64,000 nt of DNA from Pelagibius litoralis. Lineage in GTDB: Bacteria > Pseudomonadota > Alphaproteobacteria > Kiloniellales > Kiloniellaceae. Below are positions 30,728 through 55,276 of this stretch, one piece after another (the first letter of the stretch is position 1; every line of letters begins with the position of its first letter). A program made the translations under genes and the position numbers. The stretch covers positions 1 to 64,000 of the forward strand of contig NZ_JAAQPH010000005.1 in the NCBI RefSeq assembly GCF_011683915.1, in the 5' to 3' direction. The notes beneath the pieces were generated by a model. It was not told the DNA's origin, did no database searches, and saw only the letters and a list, made by a program, of their open reading frames with translations.

Positions 30728-32212
30728 AATGCGGCTGGATCGCGATTCTCTGAGTGCTACACTTGTCGCAAGCCGAGGCGGCCGCCCGGCAAGTTGCGGC
30801 TGGATCGCGATTCTCTGAGTGCTACACTGGCTGGCGTTTGGAAGCCAAAGATGACAAAGTTGCGGCTGGATCGCGATTCTCTGAGTGCTACACTACCGGA
30901 ATAAGGGTCGCCAAGACATCTTTGGTTGCGGCTGGATCGCGATTCTCTGAGTGCTACACTTTGCCGGGGAACACCCGCGAAGAGACCATGTTGCGGCTGG
31001 ATCGCGATTCTCTGAGTGCTACACTCGATCCTCGGCTTCACCGACCCGATGACCGGTTGCGGCTGGATCGCGATTCTCTGAGTGCTACACTGGCCGGCGC
31101 CGACGGTGCGAGCGGTGCAGGTTGCGGCTGGATCGCGATTCTCTGAGTGCTACACTGCCGCGGTTCAACTGGCATAAGAGCAACACGTTGCGGCTGGATC
31201 GCGATTCTCTGAGTGCTACACTCTTCTGTGGAATAGCCAGCAGTGAAGTTGAGTTGCGGCTGGATCGCGATTCTCTGAGTGCTACACTGATATCGCCCGT
31301 AACCTGCCGGGTATACTGGTTGCGGCTGGATCGCGATTCTCTGAGTGCTACACTTCAACGCAGTCTGCGGACCCGATCAAGTTCGTTGCGGCTGGATCGC
31401 GATTCTCTGAGTGCTACACTAGGCTACCGGCGCGCACTTGGAGGCCTTGCGTTGCGGCTGGATCGCGATTCTCTGAGTGCTACACTTGACGCCGTCAGCG
31501 GAAGCAACGCTTCCGTGTTGCGGCTGGATCGCGATTCTCTGAGTGCTACACTCTCGCAACGCATCTGGACCATCCGGTAAGTTGCGGCTGGATCGCGATT
31601 CTCTGAGTGCTACACTGCCTCGCACCCCCGACGGTGAACCGTCAGAGTTGCGGCTGGATCGCGATTCTCTGAGTGCTACACTCCGGCTGATCCTGGCGAA
31701 GGGTTTTCGCCCGTTGCGGCTGGATCGCGATTCTCTGAGTGCTACACTCCATATCGATGCCGGCCGCACCGCAAAGGGGTTGCGGCTGGATCGCGATTCT
31801 CTGAGTGCTACACTGATTGGCTACATCACTTACGCGACGGGCAGGTTGCGGCTGGATCGCGATTCTCTGAGTGCTACACTTTCTGGAATCCGAAAGGCCT
31901 TGACGTATCAAGTTGCGGCTGGATCGCGATTCTCTGAGTGCTACACTTTCTGGTGGGTGCTATGCGGGAGGGCATACAGTTGCGGCTGGATCGCGATTCT
32001 CTGAGTGCTACACTCCTTGTTCTTCATGGCCCCATGAAAGCGCCGTTGCGGCTGGATCGCGATTCTCTGAGTGCTACACTTTTGGCGAAGCATCGGCACA
32101 AGGCGAACAGGTTGCGGCTGGATCGCGATTCTCTGAGTGCTACACTACGGGATTGAGACTGGTGTGACGCTGCGTCGTTGCGGCTGGATCGCGATTCTCT
32201 GAGTGCTACACT
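30728..32212 (+). CRISPR. type II-C CRISPR array, 23 repeats and 22 spacers
   Basis: The 36-bp repeats begin GTTGCGGCTGG, have GATCGCGATTCTCTGAG in the middle and end TGCTACACT. They start at 30728, 30793, 30859, 30925, 30990, 31056, 31121, 31187, 31253, 31319, 31385, 31451, 31517, 31581, 31647, 31713, 31779, 31845, 31912, 31979, 32045, 32111 and 32177. Spacers are 28-31 bp and all different. All repeats look identical except the first, which has AA for its leading GT. The GTTG start and GCTACA-T end match the crRNA-sense form of Neisseria II-C repeats, so crRNA is read on the plus strand. The degenerate repeat marks the old end, so acquisition is expected beside cas2. Confidence 0.98.
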
Positions 32213-32213
32213 A

Positions 32214-32259
32214 GATAACCGCTCAATCCCTTGAAATTCATGGGAATTGAGCGGTTATC
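32214..32259. other. long hairpin at the leader end of the array
   Basis: GATAACCGCTCAATCCC (32214-32230) pairs with GGGAATTGAGCGGTTATC (32242-32259) with one bulged base. It starts two bases after the last repeat and fills most of the 73-bp gap to cas2. It may end convergent array and cas transcripts, or be part of the leader used in spacer integration. There is no T-tract. Confidence 0.65.
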
Positions 32260-32285
32260 GTTCATGCCGAAATGCTCCACTACAC

Positions 32286-32639
32286 TTAGAAAAGGGCTAG
32301 CTGACCAGGGTTTTTCCGCGTGGCTGCCCGGGTTCTTCCGTTGAATCGAACGATATTCTCGTACTGCTTGTCGGTGAAGGCAAGGATGTGAACCTTGCCG
32401 AACTCAGGCAGATTCCGCTCAATCCGGCGCGAGAAGGCTTCGAACTGCTCCCTGCCGCTGCAAAATCGCAGATAAATCGAGAACTGGCTCATCTCGAACC
32501 CCTGATCCAAGAGGAACTCGCGGAATTTAGCCGCAGCCTTGCCCCGTTCCTTGGTATCGACCGGCAGATCGAACATGACCATTATCCACATAAGGCGGTA
32601 TCCACTCAAATATCCACCATCAAGCGTTCGGGCCGTCAC
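32286..32639 (-). CDS. cas2: CRISPR-associated endonuclease Cas2
   Basis: This 117-residue protein with a ferredoxin-like fold is a subunit of the Cas1-Cas2 spacer integrase. The first strand is MWIMVMFDLPV with the conserved aspartate, followed by KAAAKFREFLLDQGFEMSQFSIYLRF, and the VHILAFTDKQYENI strand typical of type II Cas2. The GTG at 32639 overlaps the cas1 stop (GTGA), giving coupling; a start nearer SGYRLMWIM is also possible, since the family begins about there. It is last gene of cas9-cas1-cas2, next to the array. Confidence 0.95.
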   Translation of the reverse strand: MTARTLDGGYLSGYRLMWIMVMFDLPVDTKERGKAAAKFREFLLDQGFEMSQFSIYLRFCSGREQFEAFSRRIERNLPEFGKVHILAFTDKQYENIVRFNGRTRAATRKNPGQLALF

Positions 32640-33562
32640 TTGACCTGCCAGCCGGTCACCAAAGAGCCGAGATCGAGCGACTTGGGCGGCAGTGGAAATT
32701 CGAGCGAGGCCTTGCCTTCCTCAAAGGATTGTCCAACGGCGGTCGCGAGCCGCTGGATGCAGACTGCAAGCGGGCTCACCCCGTCCTTGGTCGGAACATC
32801 AAAGGCCGTCAGTGAAACCAGGGCCTGTTTTACTTCGGGAGTAACCTGCGAAGCCCCCTGCTCGACAAGGCGCTTGACACAGACATCGACAAAAGGCCGG
32901 AAAGGCTCCATCAGATCGTCGGCCAGGGCCATGTCATTGCCCCGATTGCGGTGGTGCAGGCCAATAGTCGGATGCAGCCCGGCAGCAACAACCGCACGGG
33001 CCGTAACCGCCCGTATAACCGTGTAGCCGTAATTCAACATCGCGTTCGGCGCCCCGCCCGTCCGGTCACGCCGGAAATCAACCCCGAGAAGCAAGGGCCA
33101 ATATCGTCGCGCCGCCTGGGCCTCAACGTTCTCTGGATCGCCGGACCGGACCTTGGCCGCCAAGGCGGCAACGCCACCGGAACGGCCGCCAACAGCTTCA
33201 AGTATCGCCGCCTGATTTTCGATTTTGGCGACTACGATACGCTGCCAGAGTTGTTTCTGCAGCGGTTTGCCAGCAAGCCACTGTGCACGCATGCGCGCGC
33301 CCTGCCGGTGGTGCCCATTCAAGGGCCAAGCAACCGATACAGGTGCGTGATTGCGGCCGCAGACAACGAGGCAGCAGTTCTTTTCCGCCAATGCCACCAG
33401 AAGACTGTTGGAATAAGTAATGCCGTGGGCATGGATCACCACAGCCGCGATATCGTCCAAGGGGATGCGGCCGACTTCCCGGCCACCCTCCTCCACCTTC
33501 AGAAAGCCGCGATAGGCCGATAGGTGACGGCCATCAGTAGCAATATCGACAATTCGATCCAT
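32636..33562 (-). CDS. cas1: CRISPR-associated endonuclease Cas1, type II
   Basis: This 308-residue metal-dependent integrase inserts new spacers together with Cas2. The likely catalytic residues are E147 in NVEAQAARRYWPLLLG, H203 in GLHHRN and E219 in ADDLMEPFRP. The N-terminal beta domain (GRHLSAYRGFLKVEE) and GITYSNSLLVALAEKN are typical of the type II branch. It is 27 bp downstream of cas9 and overlaps cas2. No csn2 or cas4 accompanies it, which defines subtype II-C. Confidence 0.97.
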   Translation of the reverse strand: MDRIVDIATDGRHLSAYRGFLKVEEGGREVGRIPLDDIAAVVIHAHGITYSNSLLVALAEKNCCLVVCGRNHAPVSVAWPLNGHHRQGARMRAQWLAGKPLQKQLWQRIVVAKIENQAAILEAVGGRSGGVAALAAKVRSGDPENVEAQAARRYWPLLLGVDFRRDRTGGAPNAMLNYGYTVIRAVTARAVVAAGLHPTIGLHHRNRGNDMALADDLMEPFRPFVDVCVKRLVEQGASQVTPEVKQALVSLTAFDVPTKDGVSPLAVCIQRLATAVGQSFEEGKASLEFPLPPKSLDLGSLVTGWQVK

Positions 33563-33589
33563 GGCACCCGCGCTTGGCGGGCATCGGCT

Positions 33590-36500
33590 TCAGCCGCGCG
33601 GACCGGGGTCGAACAGGCGCCCGGTCGCGTCCACGCGCACTTGCCGCGCCCGCAACTTCTTCAACCCTGACGCGGAAGTGTTAATATATTTGAAATAGTC
33701 CTCCGCCGGCGGCTTGACGTCGCGGGCCTTGAGGTTTCCCGCCTCGTTGTGGGCCGCCAACTGGATGGAGCCGTTGGCCGAAAACTTCACCACCCGGCGG
33801 ATCACGCGATCCTTGCCCGTCTCCGTCGCCAGCAGGTCGCCCTTGTGCAGCCGTAGAACCTTGCGGGCCGTCGGGGACTCGTCTTTCACTGTCGAGCGCC
33901 AGTCCGGCTGATGCGCCTGGAACATGGAAACGGCCTCGCCTTTCCATCGTCCGTCCTGCAGCTCCCATACATCGAAGCGATAGTTGGCGTCGCCCTTGTA
34001 GGCCTTGTAGGGCCGGCCGGCCTTGTCGCAGACGGGAATGACCTTCAGCCGTTCCAGCACGCGCACACGGCGCAGCCCCTTGTAGATGCCGTCGCGCGCC
34101 GCAAAGGCCGCCAGGGCGGCGGCGAAGTCCTTGCCGGACAAGCCCTCGGTCGCGTCCAGCAGGGCCTGGCGCAGGCCGGCATCGCGGACCCGTTCCACAG
34201 CCGCCCGGTCCTTGAGGCTGTCCAGGGGCACGCGGTGAACGACAAGCCGCGCGCCCCGCGCGTCCGGCGCCCCGGCCAGGCCATAGGCCGTATCGTTGTG
34301 CAGGCGCCCGGCGGAACTGCCGCGCGGATTGGCGCTGCCGGGCACCGCCGGGGTGCCGCGGTCGGGCCGGTGCGACACCGTCATGCGCTCCAGCGTCGCG
34401 CGCAGGCGGTCGCGGAACCCCTCGAAAGGCAGCGGCATGCCATCGACCAGACGGGTCAGGTCCTGTTCCTCCGCCCGCGCCGCCGCGCGCGAAACCGCGT
34501 TCAGCAGGGCGCGGTCGGTCACCCCGACGACGGCCGCATCGACCGCATGGTGCCGGTGATCCAGGCGGTTCTTCCGGTCCTGCCGCTCGACGATGTTGTG
34601 ATCGGGCAGCAGGTCGTTGAGGCCCCAACTGCGCCGCAGCAGTTCCGTCAGACGGCCCGGCGTGGCCCAGACCTTGCGGGGGTCGCAGACCGCCGTCATG
34701 TATTCCCGCGCGATCCGCGAGAGGTATTGGGTATCGGTCAGTTGACGGTCCAGGAAGTCGCGTTCCTGCGTCTCGAAACGCTCCATCGCGTCCGGCCCGA
34801 AGCGCCAGCGCTTGTTGCGCGGCAGCGCCGCGAGCCGCTCCAGGTTCTCGTCCCAGCCGGGCTGGTGCCCGAAGGCCTCAAAGGGCGTGCGGTTGCGCTT
34901 TTCCCTGTTGGCGCGGCGCAGGCCGACCGTCTTGTTGGCCGCCGAATTGTCCAGGGTGCGGGAGAACGGCAGGATGTGGTCGATCTCCACCTCGGCGGAA
35001 AACAACCGCTGCGGCGAGATCGGCTCACCCGTATAAGGACAGCGCCGGTCAAGCGGATCGTCGAAATTCAGTTCCTCCCAAAGACGCAGCCGCATCCGGC
35101 TTTCGCCCCGGTCGGGCAGGTTCAGGCCGGCCAGGATTTCGCGGTGGCGCTCGGCGCGCGCGGTGTTGTCCTTGATGCCTTTCTCGACCTCGTCGAGCTG
35201 GCGCCTGCTCAGTTTCAGTTCGCGGGCAAGCTCGACGATGATTTCCGCCGGGTGGCCATGCCGTGCGATAACAGCGTTTATCAGACGGCGGAGCTGATTG
35301 AGCGCGATATGAACCGTCGGGTTGGCGATCCTTCCGCAACGGACCTCCTCGCTGTCGCCGGGATCGCTGGAACCGAAGGCCACATGGCGTTCCAGGACAC
35401 GCCCGTAATAAGGCAGGGCATCGTGGATCACGCCGTCGCGAAAGTCGGAGTGGTGGTATCCGGCCAGTTCCGCAGCCTTGCTGTAGGGCACAACGCCGCG
35501 CTCCAGTTCGGTCAGGATCTTCCGGGTCGCCGTCAGGCCGAGTTCACCGTGACCATCCGGCAAGGCCGCGCGCACCACGCTTTCCGCCCGTTCGGCGGAG
35601 AGGCCCTGTTCGGCGGTCAACCAGGCAAGAAGGGGTTCCTCCTCTTCCTCCTCCAGCAGGTGTTCCACGACGGCGGCCTGGGTTTCGAGAGGCAGCGCCC
35701 GCCAGCCGGAACCGAAGCGGTCGTCCTTGGCGAGCGCCGCCGCCGTCTCGTCGCCTTTCAGGTCCTTGCGGGTTTCCGATTCCAGATTGAACCGGCTGTC
35801 CGGCGGCAGTTTCAAAAGACGGCGGATCTGGCCGAAGGTCCGCTTCGCGGTGGTCAGCAGGGCCAGCGCGACCTTGTCCCGTTCGTCCTGGGTCAGGCCG
35901 CGCGACGTCTGGTCCAGGCCGATGACCGCCAGGGTATTGGCGTCCTGGAAAATCCGGCGGCGCTGGAACAGGGGATGCGCCCGGGGCAGGCGCTCCTCCT
36001 CGGGATTGAAGGTGCACTTGCCGGGGCGTACGGGTTTTAGCCGGCGCTGAAAGAAAATGATGTCCCGCAGTTTCTCGCGCGCCTGCGCGGTCAGGATGGC
36101 CGGATGGTGCGGCGCCTGGGCATCCCACAGCGCCTCGAACTCCTCCAGAACCATCGCCCGGTCGGGATAGAGTTCGTAAGCCATGACCGTCTTGCCGCTG
36201 TCGGTGGATTCAGGCTTGAGGCGGACCCGGACGCTGCCGCCGCCCTGTTGCAGCCGGTGCAGGAATTCGCCCAGCGTGCGCGCGCCCTGCGCCGTCATGG
36301 CATCGCGCAGCTTGTTGACGCCCTGCCTGATCTTGCCGCGTTCGTCATCCTCGGCGCCGTCGGTCCGGCGGTTGGACTTGAAGCCCCGGCGCTGGTTCAG
36401 ATGAAACAAGGCGCGGCCCAGATGATGCAACGGAACCGCCGCGTCCAAGGCCCCGGCGCGTATCGCGTAAGGGTCCAGACCGGTCAGCGCCTTGCGGGCC

Positions 36501-36766
36501 ACCGGATCGTCCGGCATCAGCCCCGCTGCGGCAAGCGCGCTCAACAGTTTCTTCTGGCGGCGCAGATAACGGTCCCGCCGGCGCCGCATGGAACGGGCCA
36601 TACGCCGGGCCACTGCCAGAGAGGTTTTATCTTTCGGATTGCGGCCGTCGGAGAAAATCCGAACCCCGGAATCACGGATATCCACCGGGCGACCCTTGCC
36701 GTCCAGATCGACGACGCACCAACCGATAGAGTTGGTGCCAAGATCGAGGCCCAGGCGGTAATCCAT
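33590..36766 (-). CDS. cas9: CRISPR-associated endonuclease Cas9, type II-C
   Basis: This 1058-residue RNA-guided DNA nuclease is in the usual II-C size range. RuvC-I is YRLGLDLGTNSIGW with D8. An arginine-rich bridge helix (ARRMARSMRRRRDRYLRRQK, about 54-72) follows, then a helical recognition lobe from about 75 to 480. RuvC-II is IIVELARELKLS with E512. HNH has VEIDHILPFS (D596, H597) and NKTVGLRRANREK, and RuvC-III is HRHHAVDAAVVG (H740, D743). All nuclease residues are present. CPYTGEP just before the HNH is also typical. It is first gene of the cas operon, divergent from the tracrRNA. Confidence 0.98.
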   Translation of the reverse strand: MDYRLGLDLGTNSIGWCVVDLDGKGRPVDIRDSGVRIFSDGRNPKDKTSLAVARRMARSMRRRRDRYLRRQKKLLSALAAAGLMPDDPVARKALTGLDPYAIRAGALDAAVPLHHLGRALFHLNQRRGFKSNRRTDGAEDDERGKIRQGVNKLRDAMTAQGARTLGEFLHRLQQGGGSVRVRLKPESTDSGKTVMAYELYPDRAMVLEEFEALWDAQAPHHPAILTAQAREKLRDIIFFQRRLKPVRPGKCTFNPEEERLPRAHPLFQRRRIFQDANTLAVIGLDQTSRGLTQDERDKVALALLTTAKRTFGQIRRLLKLPPDSRFNLESETRKDLKGDETAAALAKDDRFGSGWRALPLETQAAVVEHLLEEEEEEPLLAWLTAEQGLSAERAESVVRAALPDGHGELGLTATRKILTELERGVVPYSKAAELAGYHHSDFRDGVIHDALPYYGRVLERHVAFGSSDPGDSEEVRCGRIANPTVHIALNQLRRLINAVIARHGHPAEIIVELARELKLSRRQLDEVEKGIKDNTARAERHREILAGLNLPDRGESRMRLRLWEELNFDDPLDRRCPYTGEPISPQRLFSAEVEIDHILPFSRTLDNSAANKTVGLRRANREKRNRTPFEAFGHQPGWDENLERLAALPRNKRWRFGPDAMERFETQERDFLDRQLTDTQYLSRIAREYMTAVCDPRKVWATPGRLTELLRRSWGLNDLLPDHNIVERQDRKNRLDHRHHAVDAAVVGVTDRALLNAVSRAAARAEEQDLTRLVDGMPLPFEGFRDRLRATLERMTVSHRPDRGTPAVPGSANPRGSSAGRLHNDTAYGLAGAPDARGARLVVHRVPLDSLKDRAAVERVRDAGLRQALLDATEGLSGKDFAAALAAFAARDGIYKGLRRVRVLERLKVIPVCDKAGRPYKAYKGDANYRFDVWELQDGRWKGEAVSMFQAHQPDWRSTVKDESPTARKVLRLHKGDLLATETGKDRVIRRVVKFSANGSIQLAAHNEAGNLKARDVKPPAEDYFKYINTSASGLKKLRARQVRVDATGRLFDPGPRG

Positions 36767-36846
36767 CTATCGCATTCCCTGAAAAACTCTTTCTTCTTAT
36801 TCAATCAGATGTTGCAGGCTGGCCCGATGCGTGTCAACGTTCAGGG

Positions 36847-36948
36847 GTAGCACTGAGAGAATCGCGATCCGGTCGTTAACAAGCCTTTCGCTTCGGCGAT
36901 TGGATTGCACAAAATCGAAGGGCAGGCTCCGGCCTGCCCTTTCATTTT
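36847..36948 (+). ncRNA. tracrRNA (predicted)
   Basis: GTAGCACT (36847-36854), one mismatch, then AGAGAATCGCGATCC (36856-36870) is the reverse complement of the repeat's 3' and middle parts. The next bases, GGTCGTTAAC, pair with the repeat 5' end GTTGCGGCT through G-U pairs and one bulged U. Behind the anti-repeat come a small GCC/GGC hairpin and the terminator AGGGCAGGC-TCCG-GCCTGCCCT (36919-36940) followed by TTCATTTTT. It lies in the gap upstream of cas9 on the opposite strand. Its promoter was not identified and its true 5' end may be earlier. Confidence 0.88.
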
Positions 36949-36987
36949 TGGCTGTGTGACGCGGCGGGCCCTGGGGCGCACCGCCCC

Positions 36988-39948: not shown

Positions 39949-40142
39949 GCCGCCGCCCCGGCAAAGTGGAACGCGCCACCGCCACAGACAGGCAATAAGT
40001 CCAAAAACGACAACCTTCGGCGCGTTCAAGCCTTCCGTTCCGGTGAAAATTCTGCCTAAAATTTCAGATCCGCGTTTCGGGACAAGCCGTCGCCAGAACG
40101 GCCGCTGCGCAGAGGAAACCAACCCGAGAGGAAGTGACGGCC

Positions 40143-41723
40143 ATGACCGGATCAGCAGGCGAGACGCCCCAGAGCCCGCGGCGCAGCCGCCGCGCCGGTG
40201 GCCGCGAGGCGCGCATAGCCCTGCGCGCCGCCCCCCTGGCCGACGACATCCAGCCGATCCGCGGCGGCATGGAGGGCGGCCGCTTCAAACCGCTGGACGA
40301 CGCCGCGATGCAGCGCATCCACAAGGCGGCGCTGCAGATTCTGGCGGAAATCGGCCTGGCCGACGCCCCGCCCTCCGGCATCGAGGTCATGACCCTGGCC
40401 GGCGCCAGCCTGGGCGACGACGGGCGGCTGCGCTTTCCCGCCGCCCTGGTCGAGGACACCCTGGCCATGGCCAACCGCAGCGTCACCCTCTGCGCCCAGG
40501 ACCCCAAACAGGATATCCAGCCCGGCGGCAAGCGGGTCTACTACGGCACCGCCGGCGCCGCCGTGCATCTGGTCGACGTTGAACGACGCGAGTACCGTGA
40601 ATCGACGTTGCAGGACATCTACGACGCCGCAAGGATCGCCGGTGGCCTGGACAACATCCACTTTTTCCAGCGGCCAATGGTGGCGCGCGACCTGCCCGAC
40701 CCCACCGACCTGGACCTGAACACCGTCTACGCCTGCGTACAGGGCACGACGAAACACATCGGCACCTCCTTCACCTCGGTCGAGCGCGCCGAAAAGGCCC
40801 TGGAGATGCTGCATCTCTTCGCCGGCGGGGAAGACGCCTGGCGCGAGCGGCCCTTCGTCTCCAATACCAACTGCTTCGTGGTGCCGCCGCTGAAGTTCGC
40901 CACCGAATCCTGCGAAGTGATGGAGGTCTGCATCCGCGGCGGCATGCCGGTGCTGCTGCTCTCCGCCGGGCAGGCCGGGGCGACCGCGCCCGCCGCCATC
41001 GCCGGGGCGGTGACGCAGGCGGTGGCCGAATGCCTGGCCGGCCTGGTCTACGTGAATGCCATCGCGCCCGGCCATCCGGCGATCTTCGGCACCTGGCCCT
41101 TCGTCTCGGACCTGCGCACCGGCGCCATGTGCGGGGGCTCCGGCGAACAGGGATTGCTGACCGCGGCCTGCGCCCAGATGGCGCAGTTCTACGACCTGCC
41201 CGGGGGGTCCGCCGCCGGCATGGCCGATGCCAAGCTGCCCGATGCGCAGTCGGGTTACGAAAAGGGCATCACCGACGTCATGGCGGGCCTCGCCGGGCTC
41301 AACATGGTCTATGAATCCGTCGGCATGCACGGCTCTCTCCTGGGGTTCTGTTTCGAGAGCCTGATCATCGACAACGACATGATCGGCCAGTGCCTGCGCT
41401 GCGTGCGCGGCATCGAGGTGACCGAGGACACGGTCTCGGTCGAGACCATGCGCCAGGTCTGCCTGGAAGGCCCGGGACACTACCTGGGCCACAGCCAGAC
41501 CCTGGGCCTGATGCAGAGCGAGTACGTCTATCCCGAACTCGGCGACCGCTCCACCCCCAAGGAGTGGGAGGCCAACGGCCGCCCCGAGCTGCTGGCCCGC
41601 GCGATCGAGCAAAAACAACGCATCCTCAAAGAGGTCTTCCCGCGCCATGTGCCCGAAGACATCGACGCCGCCGTCCGCGCCGCCTTCGACGTGAAACTGC
41701 CGAAGGGCCAGATGGGCCTTTAG
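40143..41723 (+). CDS. MttB-family (trimethylamine methyltransferase-like) protein, non-pyrrolysine
   Basis: This 526-residue member of the corrinoid-dependent MttB superfamily has the family text TSFTSVERAEKALEMLHLFAGG, VLLLSAGQAGATAPAAIAGAVTQA and LPDAQSGYEKGITDVMAGLAGLNMVYESVGMHGS. There is no in-frame amber codon, so it belongs to the non-pyrrolysine branch that acts on quaternary amines such as glycine betaine. No corrinoid protein or reductive activator is adjacent, so the methyl acceptor is unclear. The ATG at 40143 is used rather than the GTG at 40134. It overlaps the convergent araD1-like gene by four bases. Confidence 0.85.
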   Translation: MTGSAGETPQSPRRSRRAGGREARIALRAAPLADDIQPIRGGMEGGRFKPLDDAAMQRIHKAALQILAEIGLADAPPSGIEVMTLAGASLGDDGRLRFPAALVEDTLAMANRSVTLCAQDPKQDIQPGGKRVYYGTAGAAVHLVDVERREYRESTLQDIYDAARIAGGLDNIHFFQRPMVARDLPDPTDLDLNTVYACVQGTTKHIGTSFTSVERAEKALEMLHLFAGGEDAWRERPFVSNTNCFVVPPLKFATESCEVMEVCIRGGMPVLLLSAGQAGATAPAAIAGAVTQAVAECLAGLVYVNAIAPGHPAIFGTWPFVSDLRTGAMCGGSGEQGLLTAACAQMAQFYDLPGGSAAGMADAKLPDAQSGYEKGITDVMAGLAGLNMVYESVGMHGSLLGFCFESLIIDNDMIGQCLRCVRGIEVTEDTVSVETMRQVCLEGPGHYLGHSQTLGLMQSEYVYPELGDRSTPKEWEANGRPELLARAIEQKQRILKEVFPRHVPEDIDAAVRAAFDVKLPKGQMGL

Positions 41724-55041: not shown

Positions 55042-55119
55042 CACGCCTGCAGCCCTTCCTTCTCCGCCGGTTCGTAGTGGCGAAGATCGGGAAGCTTTTG
55101 GCGCTGTTCGCGGAAGGCT

Positions 55120-55210
55120 TCTCAAATCCCTACGCCGGTACAAACCGGATCAGGTTCCGCGGGTTGGCGGTGCGACCGCCTCTCAGCCCCTTTCGGGCAC
55201 CCCGTTGAGA
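55120..55210 (-). promoter_or_regulatory. TPP riboswitch (THI element)
   Basis: On the minus strand the P1 stem is TCTCAA/TTGAGA. Between lie ACGGGGTGCC, GGGGCTGAGAGG with the conserved CUGAGA, an optional stem GGCGGTCGCACCGCC, and AACCTGATCCGG with the conserved ACCUGAUC, closing with GGCGTAGGGA. It precedes thiE by about 80 bases and should shut off the operon when TPP is plentiful. Confidence 0.97.
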
Positions 55211-55276
55211 TATGCGGGAAGAATGGGCGCTGGGGACCGGCCCTGTCAAGCCCAGCCCGGTCAAGCAGTGCCCGAC

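Follow-up and report, generated by a model that had tools for sequence, protein, structure and literature searches.

EHCas9, as described in the available part of PMC10281378, is a type II-C Cas9 of clade IX with 1070 aa, its closest relatives in Alphaproteobacteria and an NGG protospacer-adjacent motif (PAM), after which every fourth base is tolerated and C is the least liked. The present study concerns the type II-C CRISPR-Cas locus of Pelagibius litoralis at 30728-36949 of the window, i.e. the whole analysed stretch of 64,000 nucleotides (positions 1 to 64,000 of contig NZ_JAAQPH010000005.1, forward strand). It comprises a CRISPR array, cas2, cas1, cas9 and a trans-activating CRISPR RNA (tracrRNA). 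As far as the available description of EHCas9 goes, the two loci share the cas9-cas1-cas2-array order, a tracrRNA upstream of cas9, 36-bp repeats, protein size (1070 and 1058 aa) and catalytic residues, a likeness taken from the description and not from compared sequences; the EHCas9 array has two repeats, unlike the 23 of the window, and its available description mentions no self-targets. Neisseria-type II-C systems are alike in the sense of their CRISPR RNA (crRNA), which is opposite to that of the cas operon, and in a -10-like repeat end (available part of PMC6282205 for the repeat promoter). Their Cas9, however, is only distantly similar to that of the window, as judged from matches to the Protein Data Bank (PDB). 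The PAM of Nme1Cas9 is longer than NGG. No paper joining Kiloniell- with Cas9 and CRISPR was found in a literature search in which subscription papers were mostly outside the scope.

Considered as a whole, the observations are most probably explained by a type II-C locus with an NGG-type PAM, an array recording phages now resident in the genome, and an anti-CRISPR candidate in one of them, prophage A. The locus is complete and apparently working, and its kind, an ordinary type II-C system, is a known one. Every repeat would drive its own crRNA, RNase III would trim the crRNA:tracrRNA duplex, Cas9 would cut DNA beside an NGG-type PAM, and new spacers would enter at the cas2 end. With it comes one more compact II-C Cas9, which has a clearly defined guide scaffold and probably reads NGG. 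The main value of the locus is a natural conflict in one genome, where the newest spacer faces a resident prophage with a plausible PAM. Through this conflict it becomes testable whether a small open reading frame (ORF) that precedes the gene of an Aca2-like repressor encodes an anti-CRISPR; the regulator and its operator offer a handle for finding further such loci in alphaproteobacterial elements.

When the joined spacers were searched against the own genome (G000; 6.03 Mb, 64 contigs, 99.5 % complete; C denotes a contig number and L a fetched locus) and 57 related genomes, three exact matches (30/30) were observed outside the array, all within the own genome. Two of them are in prophage A, a P22-like prophage (PHROGs) which extends from about 392 kb of contig C22 to the contig end at 424.7 kb and contains genes for a portal (phrog_156, 511 bits), major head protein, head closure and head-tail adaptor. 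Spacer 9 (31289-31318, +) matches the portal gene at C22:412543-412572 (+; 3' flank CGGAAT), and spacer 22 (32147-32176, +), the newest by position, matches C22:406400-406429 (-; 3' flank AGGCGC) in a gene without a PHROG match. The third, spacer 20 (32015-32044, +), is exact to C33:117449-117478 (+; 3' flank GAAGAG) in prophage B, a 23-kb element (C33:101709-125114) with an integrase, a terminase, a helicase-like gene and a 14-bp direct repeat, the right copy of which is inside tRNA-Ser(GGA). The two prophages have four common tracts (81-97 % identity) and lie outside the window, so they are invisible from its sequence. No portal or major head gene was recognised among 15 of the prophage B proteins (PHROGs), and the element is possibly a satellite or reduced prophage. 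The array would be a record of phages now resident, as three spacers, the newest included, are exact to the host's own prophages. These matches are the unusual side of the locus.

Two further protospacers were accepted with mismatches. Spacer 8 (31223-31252, +) matches 26/30 positions at C7:2144 (3' flank GGGAGG) in phage-like sequence (C7:1-10805) which has another integrase; this was considered as the other half of prophage A, and no att repeat common to C22 and C7 was found. Spacer 5 (31026-31055, +) matches 25/30 positions in a relative (G006:C32:44612; 3' flank CGGCCC). The places found at first look were only partly scored (9 of 24 in the own genome and at most five per genome in the relatives), and therefore further targets may have been missed.

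The original prediction had proposed that the 22 spacers be matched to phage and plasmid databases and the PAM be read from the flanks. The databases gave no convincing annotated match; the whole array found nothing better than E 2 among annotated phages and E 0.4 among annotated plasmids, and the exact 17-nt seed of spacer 22 had no match in viral contigs. The own genome and the relative supplied the flanks instead. NGG stands 3' of four of the five protospacers (P = 2.4e-4 at the local chance rate of 0.08-0.09), in a count which excludes places with 6-7 mismatches and spacers of other loci. Since EHCas9 requires NGG as well (PMC10281378, as available), NGG is the likely PAM of this Cas9, and the published PAM is consistent with the targets found for the window spacers.

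Several candidate targets were set aside. Two matches of the spacer 21 17-nt seed in viral contigs were rejected as chance (9/30 and 11/30 mismatches). The place homologous to the spacer 9 target in two contigs of prophage A-related phages has 6 mismatches and the flank CGGCAT; it was not counted, as it perhaps reflects portal-gene conservation only. Spacer 1 matched a 20-nt stretch of G050 when 61 genomes of the order were searched; over the whole spacer this place has more than 7 mismatches, and it was not used. Flanks of spacers of other loci, which belong to other Cas9s, were mixed overall: GCG and CGG for L016 spacer 5 (3 mismatches each), GGC for L015 spacer 1 (3 mismatches), AGG for L018 spacer 45 and CCT for L021 spacer 19 (both exact), and TGG for L017 spacer 1, which is exact in a Salmonella-phage pentapeptide-repeat gene, a repetitive sequence. 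Pairs of spacers in the same array which agree at 28/30 positions, as if from two variants of a target, were seen in L018 (spacers 40 and 47) and L021 (spacers 4 and 6).

The array (30728-32212, crRNA sense +) consists of 23 copies of the 36-nt repeat GTTGCGGCTGGATCGCGATTCTCTGAGTGCTACACT and, as predicted, 22 spacers with a length of 28-31 nt (30 nt in 16 of the 22). Repeat copies 2-23 are exact (22/23), copy 1 deviates at bases 1-2 only (AATGCGG vs GTTGCGG), and each repeat terminates in the -10-like TGCTACACT. When the window and its relatives were compared, 11 of 12 arrays had repeats ending in TANNNT. A first repeat with a degenerate 5' side was seen in 5 of the 12, and contig ends cut two further arrays. 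The available part of PMC12080349 states that II-C arrays have a promoter in every repeat, grow at the last repeat and gather mutations in an extra first repeat; the promoter-in-repeat and growth-end features are therefore already known. Because the first repeat is degenerate and this growth rule has been published, 30728 would be the oldest end of the array and the newest end would lie near cas2.

Just past the last repeat, where the array and the cas operon converge, a strong hairpin is predicted at 32214-32259 (no strand assigned; -30.3 kcal/mol, z -9.1). It is probably a terminator between the two or may act as a leader element. A hairpin at this place was also predicted in the relatives' loci, with a T-run behind it in 6/12 (by eye); it is long and without a clear T-run in the four closest systems and resembles a Rho-independent terminator in six others.

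The cas genes matched their families well above the cut-offs. They are cas2 (117 aa; 32286-32639, -; TIGR01573 61.8 bits, cut-off 24.5), type II cas1 (308 aa; 32636-33562, -; TIGR03639 246.6 bits, cut-off 120) and cas9 (1058 aa; 33590-36766, -; TIGR01865 565.4 bits, cut-off 100), the last being the only Cas9 match in the own genome. Neither csn2 nor cas4 was found beside the locus, in agreement with the prediction; the four flanking genes encode, according to Pfam, an Fpg/MutM-like glycosylase, a LysR regulator, an ORF without family and an AMP nucleosidase, none of them CRISPR genes, and the remainder of the genome was not searched for csn2 and cas4. As for the RuvC and HNH residues, which were predicted to be intact and which we take to be D8, E512, position 596, H597, N620, H740 and D743 (the EHCas9 paper agrees), six of the seven are invariant across all 12 aligned sequences and position 596 is D or E. 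When compared with the 87 %-identical homologue, cas9 showed a dN of 0.076 and a dS of 0.81. For cas9, cas1 and cas2 against the two nearest homologues (G003 and G040), dN/dS was 0.04-0.10 with a partly saturated dS of 0.8-2.1, and the three genes are, by this sequence measure, under strong purifying selection.

The original prediction had also described the recognition lobe and the C-terminal domain of this Cas9 as sharing little with well-studied Cas9s. This holds in part. The protein is not near-identical to any solved Cas9, the best PDB chain scoring 236 bits and aligning with residues 1-327 and 479-794 (405-439 weakly), and the C-terminal domain could not be aligned to PDB chains by sequence. 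On the other hand, both regions are shared over the full length with alphaproteobacterial Cas9s (87, 81, 63, 51 and 43 % identity). The predicted alphaproteobacterial origin was right. An AlphaFold model of Cas9 made from two sequences had a pLDDT of 32 and was discarded.

The tracrRNA (36844-36949, +) is divergent from cas9 and includes the anti-repeat at 36844-36879, a tail and a Rho-independent terminator to about 36949. When the 420 bases upstream of cas9 were scanned without gaps, 32/36 positions of anti-repeat and repeat were pairable with G-U allowed; 50 shuffles had 23.4 paired positions on average and 26 at most. The terminator hairpin (36876-36950) was predicted at -35.1 kcal/mol (z -5.8). 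Among ten loci, standard pairs differing on both sides were found at 21/36 positions; L020 (31/36), L024 (24/36, anti-repeat not found) and L025 (no array) were excluded from this count, and repeat positions 1, 3 and 34-35 pair badly or not at all in many of the loci. Pairing and covariation of this kind mark a real crRNA:tracrRNA duplex, and the predicted tracrRNA is strongly supported. The anticipated guide scaffold of its own stands in the ordinary sense that repeat and anti-repeat covary with those of the relatives. With these parts, the complete compact II-C locus that had been predicted was recovered, far above what chance would give.

A Cas9 match was present in 12 of the 57 other related genomes. 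All 12 loci have cas2, cas1 and cas9 in the same order and strand as the window, and 11 of them have an array, none being seen in L025. The 11 aligned homologues are 87, 81, 63, 52, 48, 49, 47, 47, 44, 44 and 34 % identical; L012 (31 %, a shorter match) was omitted from the alignment. The closest are G003 (87 %), G040/L014 (81 %), which is a Kiloniellaceae metagenome-assembled genome, and G010 (63 %). Their loci are like the window in gene order and orientation, repeat ends, covarying tracrRNA and the hairpin after the last repeat, and differ from it in their spacers. Plasmid-borne homologues over the whole length were found in Novosphingobium (51 %) and Pseudosulfitobacter (43 %). Exact self-targets were not observed in G003 (12 spacers searched), G010 (14) or G040 (25). 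G040 has one 27/30 self-match (C30:137740, flank GCG); another place, C17:71817, was rejected because it is the rest of the G040 array on another contig.

According to the available part of PMC6990116, escape from self-targeting involves a changed target, PAM or array, lost cas function, or prophage anti-CRISPRs. A changed target, PAM or array would suit prophage B, and an anti-CRISPR would suit prophage A. Because its target is followed by GAA, prophage B probably escapes for want of a PAM. Both targets in prophage A have NGG, and therefore its tolerance needs another cause. The leading candidate would be a putative anti-CRISPR of the prophage, the product of a small ORF that immediately precedes the gene of an Aca2-like autorepressor.

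In acr-aca2 operons, as described in the available parts of PMC6282205 and PMC9410906, a small ORF stands upstream of an approximately 125-aa helix-turn-helix (HTH) gene, a palindrome lies in the core promoter, one regulator occurs with differing small ORFs, and the location is in mobile elements. AcrIIC4 and AcrIIC5 came from ORFs upstream of aca2 (PMC6282205), and PMC9410906 gives the core-promoter palindrome with different small ORFs before one Aca family as the acr-aca pattern. Prophage A has a similar arrangement at C22:416.2-416.9 kb, in an orientation opposite to the neighbouring called genes. The small acidic ORF (C22:416295-416537; L052:3296-3538) encodes 80 aa (or 91 aa; pI 4.1 for the 80-aa form) and overlaps the start of the downstream HTH gene (124 aa). 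A predicted promoter, TTGAAA-18-TATGAT, encloses the palindrome TACACCAACGGTGTA. The HTH protein matched phrog_955 (HTH DNA-binding protein; E 1.1e-8), and when it was searched as a profile together with two homologues, an Aca2 chain was the top PDB match (E 7.8e-4), four of the six matches with E<=10 being Aca2. For the 80-aa ORF, no family match worth naming was obtained from Pfam, NCBIfam or PHROGs, no match was found in annotated phages and none was confirmed in viral contigs; the 57 relatives gave one match only (E 0.06). With ten proteins searched per library, these three libraries showed no anti-CRISPR family besides Aca2_YdiL. Among the papers listed, the literature search likewise showed none on an anti-CRISPR against an alphaproteobacterial II-C Cas9, subscription papers again being mostly outside it.

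Comparable modules were found at other loci. In two viral contigs (L083/L084) and in G056 (L075), regulators 52 and 47 % identical to that of prophage A have the same promoter pattern and an overlapping small ORF. More distant regulators with an overlapping small ORF and related palindromes behind TTGACA were found in G347 (L094; GTACAT-caatc-ATGTAC) and G141 (L095; TGTACA-ccaacaa-TGTACA), the palindromes being read by eye. The regulators of five loci scored 95-378 pairwise against shuffle maxima of 40-59. Their small ORFs (80, 106, 96, 88 and 83 aa) are mutually unrelated, as in all ten pairs between 23 and 197 of 200 shuffles scored at least as high. G347 and G141 are of one genus and have closely similar regulators (378) with different small ORFs. 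Across the class, the regulator was rare, being present in 3/385 genomes; G021 has a 30 % match. As far as sequence can tell, this arrangement of related regulators and unrelated ORFs matches the published acr-aca pattern and makes the prophage A ORF a candidate. The modules of L083/L084, L075, L094 and L095 are a hunting ground for anti-defence genes.

Other occurrences were less informative. The operator pattern TACACNNACNGTGTA was seen at eight loci in viral contigs, two of which are the L083/L084 contigs. L085, L090 and L091 were rejected as they had no HTH-like ORF downstream, and L092 had a 14-residue match only (E 0.19). In L086 and L089 fewer than 100 bases remain before the end, so that these two could not be judged. 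A homologue in a Bradyrhizobium phage (31 %) was also rejected; its small coding sequence is 62 bases upstream, with no overlap or palindrome.

The likely NGG assignment has to be weighed against other accounts of the PAM and of prophage tolerance. The original prediction expected a PAM of this Cas9's own, unlike those of known orthologues, and a C-terminal domain that cannot be aligned to solved Cas9s would suit this. It is made very unlikely by NGG at the flanks and by the NGG PAM of EHCas9, which is similar and alphaproteobacterial (PMC10281378, as available), and the claim is not supported. A PAM longer than NGG, or other than NGG, would turn the survival of all prophage targets into simple PAM escape. 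This is unlikely in our view, even if many II-C Cas9s read past position 4 according to the same source, the exact target of spacer 20 has GAA and no base past position 3 is common to all five flanks; NGG at 4/5 flanks and the activity of EHCas9 on NGG with any fourth base point the other way. The evidence for NGG also has weaknesses of its own: the sample is five targets, of which two are mismatched at 4-5 positions, the exact targets alone give NGG at 2/3 (P = 0.02), and the P value for all five is only indicative because the motif was noticed before being tested. Tolerance without any anti-CRISPR would also follow if the CRISPR system were unexpressed or non-interfering in lysogens, which we regard as rather improbable. 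Here the relatives are relevant. Among the newest ten spacers of four loci, exact 29/29 self-targets were found at G046:C92:1762-1790 (L081; flank AGG) and G048:C6:311264-311292 (L080; flank CCT), in regions where no phage gene was recognised by eye and anti-CRISPRs were not searched for. As the G046 target has AGG outside a recognised phage gene, self-targets may be tolerated otherwise, which counts against an anti-CRISPR as the cause. Against a silent system stand the intact parts and the strong purifying selection on cas9, cas1 and cas2, and adaptation was probably active recently because the newest spacer matches a resident prophage at 30/30.

The small ORF and HTH pair itself might be another autoregulated accessory module, either toxin-antitoxin-like or a transfer regulator, and we give this nearly an even chance. 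In G056 (L075) the module adjoins TrbI- and relaxase-like ORFs (by eye), it occurs in G347 as well, and both genomes are without Cas9 (other CRISPR types were not searched); the other copies in genomes, those of the own genome and G141, are accompanied by Cas9. In the survey of PMC9410906, as available, acr genes were upstream of only 35/1223 (3 %) Aca2-like genes, and the 80-aa ORF has no recognised relative. Further findings speak against an acr-aca assignment: the HTH gene reaches Aca2_YdiL of Pfam at E 2e-4 with 22.0 bits, below the cut-off of 23.8, the family search matched 0/58 genomes, and TACACNNACNGTGTA occurs once in the own genome, as does a reversed control pattern. Because the control also occurs once, the operator count is uninformative alone and its position is what informs. 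Unlike known acr-aca2 operons, then, prophage A has an HTH gene under the Aca2 cut-off and a small ORF that matches no known anti-CRISPR. Against an accessory module it counts that one regulator family occurs with a promoter palindrome and five mutually unrelated ORFs, which is the published acr-aca pattern (PMC9410906, as available), that this copy sits in a prophage targeted by the host's spacers, and that G141 with another copy has a Cas9. The anti-CRISPR proposal is put forward tentatively in its full form: the 80-aa ORF of prophage A might be a new anti-CRISPR that shuts down an NGG-reading alphaproteobacterial II-C Cas9, its control might lie with a new family of Aca2-related repressors, the palindromic promoters of this family (TACACNNACNGTGTA and relatives) might drive a changing set of unrelated anti-defence ORFs in phages and further elements, and the host might go on adding spacers against the resident prophage while interference is blocked.

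Elsewhere in the window, an MttB-like methyltransferase ORF of 529 aa was observed at 40134-41723 (+), with an Rfam PYLIS_3 match inside it (41220-41319). It is probably a non-pyrrolysine MttB homologue, because the frame is open and has no in-frame TAG. A TPP riboswitch is located at 55109-55214 (-; 76.8 bits).

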